Shown here in pieces: positions 2,878 to 13,281 of a stretch of 64,000 bases of DNA; positions within the stretch are counted from its first letter, which is position 1; each line of letters begins with the position of its first letter. The notes under the pieces are model-generated. The model was given only the letters and a program-made list of their open reading frames with translations. It searched no databases and was not told the DNA's origin. This DNA is from Alphaproteobacteria bacterium (GTDB taxonomy: Bacteria > Pseudomonadota > Alphaproteobacteria > Thalassobaculales > Thalassobaculaceae): NCBI GenBank assembly GCA_024742275.1, contig JANSYS010000001.1, positions 62,001 to 126,000 on the forward strand, in the 5' to 3' direction. The translations under genes were made by a program, and so were the position numbers.

Positions 2878-3714
2878 ATGGCGATCAAATCGATCCTTTG
2901 TCACATGGCCAACGACGAACGGCACCGCGACCGCCTCGAACTGGCTATCCAATTGACCAATCGGTTCTCGGGTCATCTCGACGTGCTCTACAACACCGCG
3001 CCGGTGACCATGCCTGCGGGCGCTGCCGGACGCGCCGCCTCCAACGTCTACCTCGCCGAACAGCGCGATATCGCGAAGAAGAAAGCCGAGGACATCCGAC
3101 AGGAGCTTGTCGACCGGTTTTCCAAGGCGGATTGCAGCCATGAATACCATCAGACCGAAGGAGACCATGTCGAGAAGTTGGCCGAGTTCGCCCATTTGAG
3201 CGACCTGGTCGTGGTTTCGCAGGCCCCTCCGAAAGGCGTCAGCAGCAGCATCGCGCTGCACCACCCGGAAGAGATCGCGCTGGAAGCCGGATGCGGGACG
3301 CTGGTACTTCCCTACGAAGAGGCCTATTGGGCGCCGGGGCGCCGCGTCGGAACCCGCGTCGCGGTCGCCTGGCGAAACTGCAAGGAGGCGATCCGGGCAG
3401 TCCGCGAGGCGATGCCCTTCCTGCTGGAAGCCGACGAAGTCCACGTCTTCACGGAGCAGGAAGAGGCGAAGACGCTCAAGGGCGTGGGAATCGGTCGGTA
3501 TCTGTCGATGCACGGAGTCAAAGCCACGGTACACGCCGACGTCCACGCTGAAGGGAACATCGGCGAACAGATCCTGGCCCGGGCGGATGCCTTCGACTGC
3601 GATCTGCTAGTGATGGGTGCATACAGTCGAGCCCGTTGGCACGAGATGCTGCTCGGCGGCGTGTCCGAGTACGTCCTGCATCACCTGGATCGCCCGGTGC
3701 TGATGTCGCACTGA
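2878..3714 (+). CDS. Universal stress protein, tandem UspA domains
   Basis: Cytoplasmic stress protein of 278 residues, about twice a single UspA domain. The N-terminal half (about 1-145) opens with the usual AIKSILCHM strand. The C-terminal half ends LLVMGAYSRARWHEMLLGG then VSEYVLHHLDRPVLMSH, the nucleotide-binding loop and last strand of the family, although the second glycine of the G-2x-G motif is a serine. ATP binding is therefore likely but not certain. GGAG lies about ten bases before the ATG. It is followed 28 bases later by the HD-domain gene in the same direction, so the two may share a transcript. The specific stress is unknown. Confidence 0.9.
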   Translation: MAIKSILCHMANDERHRDRLELAIQLTNRFSGHLDVLYNTAPVTMPAGAAGRAASNVYLAEQRDIAKKKAEDIRQELVDRFSKADCSHEYHQTEGDHVEKLAEFAHLSDLVVVSQAPPKGVSSSIALHHPEEIALEAGCGTLVLPYEEAYWAPGRRVGTRVAVAWRNCKEAIRAVREAMPFLLEADEVHVFTEQEEAKTLKGVGIGRYLSMHGVKATVHADVHAEGNIGEQILARADAFDCDLLVMGAYSRARWHEMLLGGVSEYVLHHLDRPVLMSH

Positions 3715-3742
3715 GCCCGGAGCCGGCGCGAAGGAGGGTCTC

Positions 3743-4372
3743 ATGGACGGCACGAAACAGGACGGATCACCTTCCACCGTGTCGTTCACGCAGATGAAAG
3801 ACGGCACCCGAGAAGACTATCTGCTGCTGGCGGAACGCGAGCAGCCGTATCTTGCCGCCACGGCCGACAGGGTGCTCGGCGAGTTGCGGCGGCAGGGAGA
3901 GCAGACCCTCGAGGGCTATCGCATCACACGCTTGGAGCACGGGCTGCAGTCGGCGGCCCGCGCAGAGGCAGACGGAGCGGATTTGGATTGGGTCGTCGGC
4001 GCCCTGCTGCATGACATCGGCGACGGGCTCGCCCCGCAGAACCATGATCGAATGGCGGCCGAGGTGATCCGGCCCTTCGTCCGCTGGGATGTGAGCTGGG
4101 TGGTCGAGCATCACGGAATTTTCCAGATGCTCTACTACGGCCACCACTACGGCTGGGATCGGAACGCCCGTGAGCGGTTTCGGGACCATCCCTGCTTCGA
4201 CCTCTGCGCCGCGTTCTGCGAGCGCTGGGACCAGGCGTCGTTCGATCCGGACTATCCGACGCCGCCCTTAAGCCATTTCGAGCCGATGGTCCGGTCCGTA
4301 TTCGCCCGCAAAGCCTACGATCCGTCGGTAATCCGCGAGGGCGAAACGACCCCGCTCACAGGTGCCGCCTGA
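3743..4372 (+). CDS. HD-domain protein resembling PhnZ/MIOX-type diiron oxygenases
   Basis: Protein of 209 residues with an HD fold. The motifs LEHGLQ (H66), LLHDIGD (H89, D90), QNHD (H100), VVEHHG (H122/H123) and ERWDQ (D162) reproduce, in order and spacing, the six metal ligands of PhnZ, a mixed-valence diiron oxygenase that cleaves the C-P bond of a hydroxylated phosphonate. A tyrosine (Y59) sits seven residues before the first histidine; PhnZ has a labile tyrosine ligand ten residues before. Many such proteins are annotated simply as phosphohydrolases, and that remains possible. No PhnY/TmpA-like hydroxylase is in the window, so the substrate is unknown. The start has AAGGAGGG five bases upstream; a terminator follows the gene. 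Confidence 0.75.
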   Translation: MDGTKQDGSPSTVSFTQMKDGTREDYLLLAEREQPYLAATADRVLGELRRQGEQTLEGYRITRLEHGLQSAARAEADGADLDWVVGALLHDIGDGLAPQNHDRMAAEVIRPFVRWDVSWVVEHHGIFQMLYYGHHYGWDRNARERFRDHPCFDLCAAFCERWDQASFDPDYPTPPLSHFEPMVRSVFARKAYDPSVIREGETTPLTGAA

Positions 4373-5915: not shown

Positions 5916-6145
5916 TCCTCTCCATCCTCCCAGGGCGTCCCGCCACCGAAATCTCCGGGGTCGCCGACGCAGCCCCCCGCCACGACGGTCTCCTAAAGGC
6001 GCGCGAGTATGCCCGAACCGATCTCCCCCCGAAAGCCCCTGCCAATCCGTTAGGCTCGGATGACCGCCGGGTCGGTGACAAGCCTCGCGCAAACATGATA
6101 GATGCGTCCAAAGAGCATATTCCGACGACCCAGGAGATCGTCCCG

Positions 6146-6847
6146 ATGGACATGACCGGCCAGCAGACCATCCCCGCCCCCCGCGAGACGGTGTGGGAGG
6201 CGCTGAACGACCCGGACGTGCTGAAAGACTGCATCCCCGGCTGCGAGGAGATCGAGCGCACCGGCGACAACGGGTTCACCGCCAAGGTTTCCGCGAAAGT
6301 GGGTCCGGTGAAGGCCAAGTTCTCCGGCGCCGTCGAACTGCAGAACCTGAACCCGCCGGTAAGCTACACGATCGCGGGCGAAGGCAAGGGCGGCGCCGCC
6401 GGCTTCGCAAAAGGCAGCGCCGACGTCAAACTGGAGGAGGTCGACGGCGGCGCCGCGACTCTGCTGACCTACGACGTCAAAGCGAATGTCGGCGGCAAGT
6501 TGGCCCAGATCGGCGGACGGTTGATCGACTCGACGGCCAAGAAATACGCCAACGACTTCTTCGAGAAATTCACCGAGATCGCTTCCGCCCGTGCGGCCGC
6601 CGCAGGCGCTCCCGCCCCTGCCAGCACGTCGCCACAGACCGAAGCCGGTCCCGCCGATACCACGCCTGCCGCAGACAAGAAGGAGAGCCACGCCGTGGGA
6701 GACACAGCAGATACGCGCAGCGAAGAAATGAAGCGCCTCGGGATACCGGCCGAGAACGTTTATGACGGCCTGCATTGGGCTGCGGCCCTGAGTTGGATCG
6801 CTCTCGCCGTCACCGCGGTCATGCTCGTGGTGCTCGGCAACGCCTGA
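6146..6847 (+). CDS. coxG: CoxG-like SRPBCC protein with C-terminal membrane anchor
   Basis: Protein of 233 residues. Residues 1-150 form the CoxG/SRPBCC domain ([20 protein letters not shown], then [10 protein letters not shown] and [10 protein letters not shown]). A proline/alanine-rich linker follows, then a C-terminal hydrophobic helix ([20 protein letters not shown]) that should anchor it in the membrane. CoxG proteins attach CO-dehydrogenase-type molybdenum hydroxylases to the membrane and link them to the quinone pool. The start at 6146 matches the conserved MDMTG opening and has CAGGAG nine bases upstream; an earlier in-frame ATG at 6095 is not family-like. It lies 2.6 kb before coxS, with adhC and a chemoreceptor-like gene between. 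Confidence 0.85.
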
Positions 6848-6924: not shown

Positions 6925-8034
<1,110 letters not shown>

Positions 8035-9199: not shown

Positions 9200-9486
9200 G
9201 CCGACACAGACCGTTCAAGCAAGCGGGCCATGCTCGTCCGTTTCGATACACTTCCCTCACCCGCCCGACTTGTGTCGGGACCTATCGGCCCGCCGCCGGG
9301 AGCGAAAGAAGCCCTCTAGGTCTCGCAAGGCGCGACACATCGGGACACCGACAGCGTGGCCTCACCGCTTGACCTCGGGCGGGCGGGGAAAGAGACTGCA
9401 CTCTGAGAGGGGCGGCGCCGGATCGGGAAACGCCAAAGAGCCCCCGTCACCAAACCAGACGATTGCTTCACGAGGGAGATAAGGGC

Positions 9487-9948
9487 ATGCCCACGGTATC
9501 CATGACGGTGAACGGCAAGAAGGTCTCCGGCGAAGTCGAGGGCCGGACTCTGCTTGTTCAGTTTCTGCGGGAAAATCTGCACCTGACCGGCACCCATGTC
9601 GGCTGCGATACGAGCCAGTGCGGCGCCTGCGTCGTCCACGTCAACGGCGACAGCATGAAGTCCTGCACCCTGCTCGCCGTCCAAGCGGAAGGTGCCGAGG
9701 TCACGACCATCGAAGGCCTCGCTGACGGCGACACACTGCACCCGATGCAGGAAGCCTTCCGGGACAATCATGGTCTGCAGTGCGGCTTCTGCACGCCGGG
9801 AATGGTCATGAGCGCGGTCGATCTCGTGAAGAAGAACCCCAAGGCGAGCGAGCACGAGATCCGCGAATGGCTTGAAGGCAACATTTGCCGCTGCACCGGC
9901 TACCACAACATCGTGAAGTCGATTCAACAGGCCCAGCAGACCATGTGA
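9487..9948 (+). CDS. coxS: Molybdenum hydroxylase small subunit, [2Fe-2S] protein
   Basis: Iron-sulfur subunit of 153 residues of a xanthine-oxidase-family enzyme. The plant-type cluster uses C40, C45, C48 and C60. The second, helical cluster uses C99 and C102 (CGFC) with C134 and C136 (CRCTGY). Electrons pass from the molybdenum centre in CoxL through these clusters to FAD in CoxM. The start at 9487 has GAGGGAG upstream. The 287-base spacer before it, after the chemoreceptor-like gene, holds a small hairpin (CCCGAC/GTCGGG at 9264-9279) and otherwise nothing I can name. The gene order here is S-L-M, not the M-S-L of classical CO dehydrogenase operons. Confidence 0.95.
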
Positions 9949-9956
9949 TCCGCCGG

Positions 9957-10037
9957 GCTGATCGAGACGATCGATCAGCTCAGGCAGTTTGGCAGAAACG
10001 TCCGTTAACCCCATTCAAATAAAAAATAATAATGGGG
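9957..10037 (+). promoter_or_regulatory. Intercistronic hairpins between coxS and coxL
   Basis: Nine bases after coxS, GCTGATCGA (9957-9965) pairs perfectly with TCGATCAGC (9971-9979). Further on, CCCCATT (10009-10015) pairs with AATGGGG (10031-10037) around a 15-base loop of almost only A and T. Neither is followed by a T-run. They may stabilise or attenuate the message between coxS and coxL, or the AT-rich second element may mark an internal promoter. This function is inferred from structure only. Confidence 0.45.
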
Positions 10038-10060
10038 AGACATGACCAGGGAGAGAGAGC

Positions 10061-12436
10061 ATGCCTGAGGGAGGTACCGGCATCGGCGCGGCCGTGAAGC
10101 GCGTCGAAGACAAGCGTTTCCTGACCGGTCGCGGCAACTACACCGACGACATCAACCGTCCGAATCAGACCTACGCCTACATCCTGCGGAGTCCCCACGC
10201 TCACGCGTCGATCAACGGCGTCGACACGGCTGCGGCGACGGCCGCTCCGGGCGTCCTGGCGGTCTTCACCGGTGCCGATATGGAGACCGGCGGCCTACCC
10301 TGCGGATGGCAGGTCCACTCAAAGGACGGCTCGCCGATGCACGAGCCGGTGCATCCGCCGCTCGCCAAGGGCAAGGTCCGTCATGTCGGCGATCCTGTCG
10401 CGGTCGTCATCGCCGAAACCTACGCTCAGGCGAAGGATGCGGCGGAACGGATCGTTGTCGATTACGCCACCCTGCCCGCTGTCGTGGGCATGAACGACGC
10501 GCTGTCGGGAACCACGCTGGTCCATGACGAGATCGGCACCAACCTCTGCTACGACTGGGAGATCGGCGACGAGGCCCAGATCGACGAGGCATTCGCCAAG
10601 GCGCACCACGTCACCGAGATCGACATCGTCAACAACCGCCTCATCCCGAACGCCATGGAGCCGCGGGCGGCGGTCGGCGAGTACGACAGGGCGACCGACG
10701 AGTACACCCTGTTCACCACAAGCCAGAACCCGCATGTGATCCGTCTGCTGATGGGCGCATTCGTGCTGTCGATTCCAGAGCACAAGCTGCGGGTCGTAGC
10801 GCCGGATGTCGGCGGCGGCTTCGGCTCGAAGATCTATCACTACGCCGAGGAAGCCATCGTCACCTGGGCGGCACCCCGGGTGGGTCGGCCGATCAAATGG
10901 ACCGCCGAGCGATCCGAGTCCTTCATCTCCGACGCCCACGGACGGGACCATATCTCCAAAGCCAAGATGGCGATGGACAGCGAGGGCAAATTCCTCGCGC
11001 TCAAGGTCGAGACCAAGGCCAATATGGGGGCGTATCTGTCCACCTTTGCGCCCTGCGTCCCGACGTATCTCTACGCCACTCTGCTCGCCGGCGTGTACTC
11101 GACCCCGCTGATCTACTGCAACGTGAAGGCGGTCTTCACCAACACGGTACCGGTCGATGCCTATCGCGGGGCCGGACGGCCGGAGGCGACTTACCTGCTC
11201 GAGCGTCTGGTGGCGAAATGCGCCCGCGAAATGGGCATGAGCCAGACCGATATCCGCCGGGCGAACTTCATCCCGTCGGATGCCTTCCCCTACCAGACAC
11301 CGGTAGCGCTTCAGTACGACAGCGGCAATTACACCGCGACACTGGACAAGGCCGAGGCGGCCCACGACGTGGCCGGGTTCGCCGCCCGTAAGGCGGAGTC
11401 CGAGGCTAAGGGAATGCGCCGAGGTATCGGCTACTCGACCTATCTGGAGGCCTGTGGCATCGCGCCGTCCGCTGTGGTGGGCTCGCTCGGCGCCCGGGCC
11501 GGGCTCTACGAGTCGGCGGAGGTTCGCGTCCACCCGACCGGGTCGGTGACGATCTTCACCGGTTCCCACAGCCACGGCCAGGGCCACGAGACGACTTTCG
11601 CCCAGCTCGTGTCCGAGCGGCTCGGACTACCGATGGACAACATCGAGATCAGCCACGGAGACACCAACAAGGTGCAGTTTGGCATGGGCACCTACGGATC
11701 GCGTTCGCTGGCCGTCGGCGGTGAGGCGATCATGAAGGCGATGGACAAGGTCGTGAACAAGGCCAAGAAGATCGCCGCCCACATCATGGAGGCGTCGGAA
11801 AGCGACATTGAGTTCAAGGACGGCACCTTCACGGTCGCCGGAACCGATCGTTCGATGGCGTTCGGCGAGGTGGCGCTTGCCGCCTACGTCCCACACAACT
11901 TCCCCCACGATGAGCTGGAACCCGGCTTGGACGAAAAGGCGTTCTACGATCCGCTAAACTTCACCTTCCCCGGTGGGTGCCATATCTGCGAGGTCGAAGT
12001 CGATCCGGATACCGGCAAGGTCCGGATCGATCGGATGACCGCCGTCGACGATGTCGGACGCGTCATCAATCCGATGATCGTCGAGGGACAGATCCATGGC
12101 GGTCTGGCCCAAGGTATCGGGCAGGCCCTGCAGGAAGGCTGTGTTTACGACGAGGACGGTCAACTCGTGACCGGTTCCTATATGGACTACAGCATGCCGA
12201 GAGCGGAAGATCTGCCGAGCTTCTCGGCCGGTACGGAGATCACGCTCTGCGCTCACAACTCGCTCGGCGTAAAAGGCTGCGGCGAAGTTGGAGCCATCGG
12301 ATCACCGCCGGCCGTGATCAACGCGGTGGTCGACGCACTGTGGGACCTTGGCGTAAGGGACATGCCGATGCCCGCCACCTCGCAGACGGTGTGGAGGGCC
12401 ATTCGCGCCGCCGCGCCGGCTGCCGCCGCCGAATAG
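10061..12436 (+). CDS. coxL: Molybdenum hydroxylase large subunit, CoxL-like form II
   Basis: Molybdopterin subunit of 791 residues, the usual family length. The molybdenum-cofactor loop VGGGFGSK and the catalytic glutamate region [12 protein letters not shown] are intact. The active-site loop reads AYRGAGR (residues 367-373), the form II signature. True form I CO dehydrogenases have AYxCSFR with the cysteine that binds copper. CO as substrate is therefore unproven; aldehydes or N-heterocycles are equally possible. The start has AGGGAGAGAG just upstream. It is followed by coxM after 47 bases. I use coxL as the family name, not as a statement about substrate. Confidence 0.92.
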
Positions 12437-12483
12437 ACTGACGACAGTTGACCTGACGACAAGGGTTACAGGAGAGACGAGCC

Positions 12484-13281
12484 ATGTACGATTTTGCCTA
12501 TCACAAGCCGTCGTCCGTCTCGGACGCGGTCGCCGCCCGCAGCGGGGCCGAAGACGGCACCTATGTGGCCGGCGGCATGACCCTGGTGCCCACGCTCAAG
12601 CAGCGTCTCGCCCAGCCGTCCGATCTGATCGATCTGGGCAGCGTGAGCGAACTCAAGGGCATCACCGTTTCCGGAGATACGGTGACGATCGGGGCGATGA
12701 CGACCCACGCGACGGTCGCCAACTCGGCCGATGTTCAGTCTGTCATCCCGGCCCTGGCCGCGCTGGCGGGCATGATCGGTGATCCGCAGGTGCGCAACCG
12801 CGGTACGATCGGCGGCTCGGTCGCCAACAACGACCCGGCGGCCGACTATCCTGCTGCCTGCCTCGCCCTCGGCGCCATCATCAAGACCGACAAACGCGAG
12901 ATCGCGGCGGACGATTTCTTCACCGGCATGTTCGAGACCGCGCTCGAAGACGGTGAGATGATCGTGTCGGTGTCCTTCCCGAAGCCCCAAAAGGCGTCGT
13001 ACCAAAAGTTCATCAACCCGGCCTCGCGCTATGCTCTGGTCGGAGTCTTCGCCGCTCAGACCGGCGGCGGTGCCCGGGTCGCGGTGACGGGCGCGGGTCA
13101 GGACGGCGTGTTCCGGGTTCCCGAAATGGAGAGCGCGCTCGGAGCGAATTGGTCGCCTGAGGCGGTGGCCGGCGTTTCGGTGGATGCCGGCACCCTGAAC
13201 GCAGACATTCACGCCAGCGCGGAGTATCGGGCACATCTGATTACGGTGATGGCCAAGCGCGCGGTTGCCGCGGCCAGCTGA
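12484..13281 (+). CDS. coxM: Molybdenum hydroxylase medium subunit, FAD-binding
   Basis: FAD subunit of 265 residues that passes electrons from the iron-sulfur clusters to an acceptor, in CO dehydrogenases the quinone pool. The two FAD-binding motifs are AGGMT (about residue 31) and TIGGSVANNDPAADYPAA (about 109), the latter very well conserved. The C-terminal CO-dehydrogenase flavoprotein domain begins near residue 175 (FINPASRYALVGVFAAQ). GGAGAG lies upstream of the ATG. The gene is the last of coxSLM and is closed by a clear terminator. Maturation genes such as coxD, coxE and coxF are not next to it. Confidence 0.95.
   Translation: MYDFAYHKPSSVSDAVAARSGAEDGTYVAGGMTLVPTLKQRLAQPSDLIDLGSVSELKGITVSGDTVTIGAMTTHATVANSADVQSVIPALAALAGMIGDPQVRNRGTIGGSVANNDPAADYPAACLALGAIIKTDKREIAADDFFTGMFETALEDGEMIVSVSFPKPQKASYQKFINPASRYALVGVFAAQTGGGARVAVTGAGQDGVFRVPEMESALGANWSPEAVAGVSVDAGTLNADIHASAEYRAHLITVMAKRAVAAAS

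Follow-up and report, generated by a model that had tools for sequence, protein, structure and literature searches.

The HD-domain gene at positions 3743-4372 (+) of the window, the whole 64,000-nucleotide stretch analysed here, raises the question of whether its 209-residue product is a diiron oxygenase related to PhnZ or an HD phosphohydrolase and, if it is an oxygenase, whether it acts on phosphonates. The reading frame is open throughout, a Shine-Dalgarno-like AGGAGG (3732-3737, +) lies 5 nt ahead of its ATG, and orthologues with about 75-88% identity (84-88% within the window's own genus) occur in dozens of species. The AGGAGG and the presence of such orthologues in many genomes show that this is a real gene. 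The protein matched the Pfam HD model (27.4 bits, cut-off 22), and both the H...HD...D motif in the motif alignment and the helical HD fold in the predicted structure are those of the HD-domain superfamily. The reading frame, strand, coordinates and HD domain given in an earlier sequence-only reading of this DNA were thus confirmed.

Metal ligands and structural kinship

In an alignment of 175 family sequences, the six predicted metal ligands of the window protein were 100% invariant, namely H66 (codon 3938-3940), the H90-D91 pair (4010-4015), H101 (4043-4045), H124 (4112-4114) and D163 (4229-4231), all on the + strand. F127, F158 and F167 were conserved near 100%, and R63 (3929-3931, +; 96%), D94 (4022-4024, +; 98%), Q128 (4124-4126, +; 99%) and R143 fell within 96-99%. 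Profile-profile comparison of the family with 23 HD proteins of the phosphonate oxygenase type (Phn-HD) aligned residues 41-189 with 99.6% probability (E 1.7e-23) and paired the six ligands one-to-one with those of the Phn-HD family. Because the ligands are invariant in 175 sequences and align one-to-one, their presence is not due to chance. The sequence-only reading had placed the six PhnZ ligands in order, and all are present; its residue numbers were one too low after H66, and its H122/123 corresponds to the pair H123/H124, in which H124 is the ligand and H123 varies. It had also seen a tyrosine near the first histidine as in PhnZ. This likeness did not hold: in the family and profile-profile alignments Y59 (3917-3919, +) lies at -7 from H66 and aligns with the Glu of the YxxE substrate loop, whereas the Tyr of PhnZ/TmpB is at -10, where the window protein has L56. 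The YxxE loop is therefore missing.

The statement that ordinary HD phosphohydrolases carry only the H...HD...D set was too strong, since YqeK shares all six ligands and seven are found in HD-GYP proteins (PMC8177086). As YqeK is a phosphatase, the six-ligand set alone is no proof of an oxygenase. The window protein could instead be a dinuclear phosphohydrolase that follows YqeK or HD-GYP logic and has no more than the fold in common with PhnZ. YqeK (diadenosine tetraphosphate hydrolase, 2o08) is itself diiron, and one relative of the window protein is annotated as a phosphohydrolase. Moreover, HD hydrolases have been described as carrying an Arg at -3 from the first ligand His (PMC8177086); here it is R63, the main sequence feature that speaks against an oxygenase.

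Sequence and fold comparisons argued against such a hydrolase. The only supported PDB sequence matches of the single window protein were TmpB and PhnZ (E 9e-7 and 1e-5), and a profile of 51 family members matched PhnZ/TmpB at E 3e-13, every other match having E > 0.1. The predicted structure (pLDDT 82) gave fold Z scores of 15.6 for PhnZ (2-amino-1-hydroxyethylphosphonate oxygenase; PDB 4mlm, 4n6w, 4n71), over 153 residues with about 24% identity in the structural alignment, and 15.4 for TmpB (6npa), with a range of 15.3-15.6. MIOX (myo-inositol oxygenase, 2ibn), an HD diiron oxygenase with the same ligand order, followed at 8.8. The highest-scoring hydrolase was Rel at 6.8, so that YqeK (3.9) and the other hydrolases (at most 6.8) stood against 15.5 for PhnZ/TmpB. 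Foldseek returned E ≤ 0.001 solely for PhnZ and TmpB. No characterised HD hydrolase was nearest by PDB sequence search, family profile, Foldseek or fold Z, and profile searches returned no supported hydrolase match, YqeK included. These comparisons support the view that the window protein is closer kin to PhnZ/TmpB than to HD phosphohydrolases.

The profile alignment and structure prediction proposed in the sequence-only reading thus bore out its claim of PhnZ kinship, and no tighter clustering with characterised HD hydrolases was seen. Its observations and interpretation were upheld in part: the reading frame, HD domain, ordered ligands and kinship stood, while the numbering, the tyrosine argument and the generalisation about hydrolases, and with it the uniqueness of the six ligands, did not. 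We consider it likely from sequence and model that the window protein is a diiron oxygenase of the PhnZ/TmpB/MIOX type, a judgement that concerns the type of enzyme and not its substrate, and a dinuclear phosphohydrolase is unlikely.

Relation to the phosphonate HD oxygenases

A fully supported branch (100/100) of the tree separated the family from the Phn-HD set. A class-wide search revealed a gap between them, with E values of about 1e-26 or lower for family members, matched over their full length, and of about 1e-7 for PhnZ-like proteins. Judged by sequence, the family is a clade separate from the phosphonate HD oxygenases. Counted by hand, members occurred in about 115 of the 387 alphaproteobacterial genomes (about 30%); across the phylum, 50 of 349 genomes matched the family at E 1e-12. 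No relatives were found on viral contigs. A literature search, which did not reach the primary PhnZ and TmpA/TmpB papers, found no paper describing the family. The family is a large bacterial one and apparently undescribed. The HD oxygenases in a 2020 review are only MIOX, PhnZ and TmpB (PMC8177086), and a few close homologues have been added since (PMC10574752). A very common separate family that retains all ligands and has hydroxylase partners would broaden HD oxygenase chemistry. Published abundances of marine phnZ lie between less than 1% and about 20% of cells (PMC10574752), and in one survey 45% of the marine phnZ sequences were attributed to Pelagibacterales (PMC9381506). The family may bear on such metagenomic counts and might be partly hidden in them.

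To define phosphonate-specific positions, we used invariance in the Phn-HD set, which may not equal the substrate-binding residues of PhnZ. In the profile-profile alignment, the Y and E of YxxE, H57, K102, R103, S117, S120, QGG, R152 and K159 of Phn-HD were replaced or absent in the window protein. Unlike PhnZ, the window protein has HDIGD for HDxGH, with D94 in place of the second His, and HGIFQ for HVxAK, with Q128 at the invariant Lys, and it carries R63. Its scores against the NCBIfam phosphonate models were 44.6 bits for Phn-HD (TIGR03276, cut-off 214.6), 36 of 300 for TmpB and 28 of 300 for PhnZ1, that is, 28-45 bits against cut-offs of 214-300. In agreement with the sequence-only reading, none of the neighbourhoods read, that of the window included, had a recognisable phosphonate gene next to the HD gene.

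An oxygenase that cuts the C-P bond of an alpha-hydroxyphosphonate would accord with PhnZ and TmpB being the closest solved relatives, and other residues could hold the phosphonate, for example R63, which could bind an anion. However, the residues invariant in Phn-HD are replaced or absent, the model scores are low, no phosphonate gene is recognised nearby, and the window genome already has a C-P lyase (PhnJ) elsewhere. Further support would come from two genomes in which a phosphate-binding-protein-like gene follows a TmpA-like/HD pair (L217, 6759-7928; L218, 8668-9837), the sole hint of phosphate that we found. As one form of the oxygenase reading, phosphonate cleavage seems improbable. An undescribed substrate is plausible in view of the replaced YxxE loop and invariant Phn-HD residues, the low NCBIfam scores and the lack of a recognised phosphonate gene in the neighbourhoods read. 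Our best reading is a predicted mixed-valent diiron HD oxygenase of a new subfamily, probably not specific for phosphonates.

Hydroxylase partners and the window locus

A PhyH-type 2-oxoglutarate oxygenase gene lay directly upstream of the HD gene at 25 loci, mostly with a 4-nt ATGA overlap, and a gene for a TauD protein nearest to TmpA held this position at 7 loci. PhyH-type partners occurred in the window's branch and TmpA-like partners in others, and further branches had class II aldolase neighbours or none. The TauD partners scored 343-353 bits against the TmpA model, below its cut-off of 400, and 259-266 against GBBH; their best PDB match was TmpA (6npb). This nearness to TmpA is a point in favour of phosphonate cleavage. 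The window lacks such a partner. An active 2-oxoglutarate oxygenase of the PhyH class is expected to have an HxD pair, a His and an Arg. Residues conserved in the PhyH partners include such an HxD pair (H119-D121), H207 and R217/R218, which fits this expectation.

Among 1,417 genes of at least 200 aa in the loci read, 29 hydroxylase genes were adjacent to the HD gene and 3 lay elsewhere; these are not independent events, as the loci are related. The raw script count was 21 adjacent and 11 elsewhere, and 8 were moved by hand because HD genes shorter than 200 aa had been filtered out. Partners differed even between sister HD genes: L113 (TauD) grouped with L119 (PhyH) at support 100/99, and L090, with a fatty-acid hydroxylase gene downstream, grouped with L116 (PhyH) at 100/93. 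A quick tree indicated at least 9 changes of neighbour, the universal stress protein included. Single loci had a Rieske protein (L137) or fatty-acid-hydroxylase proteins (L090, L173), and two had what was judged by eye to be an IPNS-like 2-oxoglutarate oxygenase (L165, without an NCBIfam match, and L168). Most family members had no adjacent hydroxylase, a count that is approximate because the gene calls are crude. The upstream pairing echoes the logic of PhnY/PhnZ and TmpA/TmpB, and its recurrence is unexpected for a phosphatase.

Two further arrangements were observed. A class II aldolase/adducin gene adjoined the HD gene in five loci outside the window's branch (L254, L271, L093, L160 and L167). 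Tandem family members occurred in L137 (5222-6585) and L140 (1632-2817), and in L137 they follow a gene for a Rieske oxygenase, while a PhyH gene and another Rieske gene lie close by.

In the window, the HD gene follows a universal stress protein gene (2878-3714, +) by 28 nt on the same strand, as the sequence-only reading had noted. Further loci of the Thalassobaculaceae (such as L001, L006 and L096) have the pair as well, but it is not found in Nisaea (L080). A functional link to this gene was considered and rejected, since only Thalassobaculaceae loci, themselves placed inside a clade linked to PhyH, show the pair. The universal stress gene is a local trait of the window's genus rather than a clue to function. 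In the tree this genus falls inside the PhyH-linked clade, where a PhyH-linked gene is its sister; within the same family, Nisaea has kept a coupled PhyH-HD pair (L080, L098). The nearest PhyH proteins of the window genome were paralogues with 41-49% identity. Two such genes were set aside as the lost partner because in Nisaea a paralogue of this kind (44%) exists alongside the linked PhyH (69%), and the TauD genes of the window genome, at just 33-35%, were set aside as TmpA-like partners.

Among 30 genome entries (one species twice), PhyH orthologues of at least 64% identity were found only in the four genomes with an adjacent PhyH. None of at least 60% was found in the checked Rhodobacterales and Thalassobaculum genomes where the HD gene stands alone, with the proviso that MAGs and drafts are an imperfect guide to gene absence. 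The window's genus appears to have lost the PhyH orthologue, and the universal stress gene stands there instead. Because PhyH orthologues were confined to those four genomes, the partner is accessory rather than obligatory, and HD proteins that keep all ligands persist without it.

An HD gene without a PhyH partner in most genomes checked would also suit an enzyme similar to MIOX, one that breaks a C-C bond in a polyol or a cyclic diol and needs no hydroxylase. MIOX was the next fold match after PhnZ and TmpB, weak Pfam MIOX (PF05153) matches occurred in 22 of 51 diverse members, and one relative is annotated as an 'inositol oxygenase family protein'. The window protein itself, however, had no Pfam MIOX match, PhnZ/TmpB are far closer in fold and sequence, and the hydroxylase pairing of the relatives is unlike MIOX. 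We regard this variant of the oxygenase reading as very doubtful.

Candidate substrates and proposed reaction

Some of the TmpA-like loci had quaternary-amine genes nearby, a further likeness to TmpA/TmpB. L091, on a Pseudomonas aeruginosa plasmid, had a choline-binding protein (choline SBP), BetA and BetB; L219 had a GbcA-like Rieske protein; and L215, representing AT-rich genomes of about 1.4 Mb, had a GMC oxidoreductase, a DMSP-demethylase-like protein and a seeming ammonium transporter. L177, which is not TmpA-linked, had a sarcosine-oxidase-type gene and a Rieske protein. Together, these neighbourhoods, of which the TmpA-like-linked ones lie outside the window's branch, suggest methylated amines as possible substrates. 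Given these choline/betaine genes near some relatives and the replaced Phn-HD residues, our guess is that the bond cut is C-C rather than C-P, perhaps in a betaine-like compound.

In PhnZ, TmpB and MIOX, a mixed-valent diiron centre binds substrate on one iron and O2 on the other, and H abstraction is followed by four-electron C-X cleavage (PMC8177086). By analogy, the six ligands of the window protein would bind an Fe(II)/Fe(III) pair, with the hydroxyl of a small alpha-hydroxylated substrate on one iron and O2 on the other. A superoxo form would abstract the H of the C-OH carbon; oxidative cleavage of the bond between this carbon and the adjacent atom would yield a carboxylic acid, with no outside electrons. 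In many relatives, the substrate would probably be made by the 2-oxoglutarate hydroxylase encoded just upstream. Since the PhyH partner is gone from the window's genus, another hydroxylase or an already hydroxylated metabolite would have to supply it there. We tentatively propose, as a possibility held with considerable doubt, that this widespread family cleaves C-C bonds of hydroxylated betaine-like metabolites oxidatively and has repeatedly changed its hydroxylase partner (PhyH, TmpA-like TauD and perhaps fatty-acid hydroxylase, Rieske or IPNS-like proteins). If true, this would be a third HD oxygenase chemistry after inositol and phosphonate cleavage.

Other genes of the window were also noted. 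CoxSLM-type molybdenum hydroxylase genes lie at 9463-13278 in the order small, large, medium subunit, with a CoxG-like gene at 6095-6847. The large subunit carries AYRGAGR, which we take to be the motif of form II CO dehydrogenase-like proteins. At 6925-8034 lies a gene for a zinc alcohol dehydrogenase resembling S-(hydroxymethyl)glutathione dehydrogenase, and a similar gene occurs near the TmpA-like/HD pair of L219.
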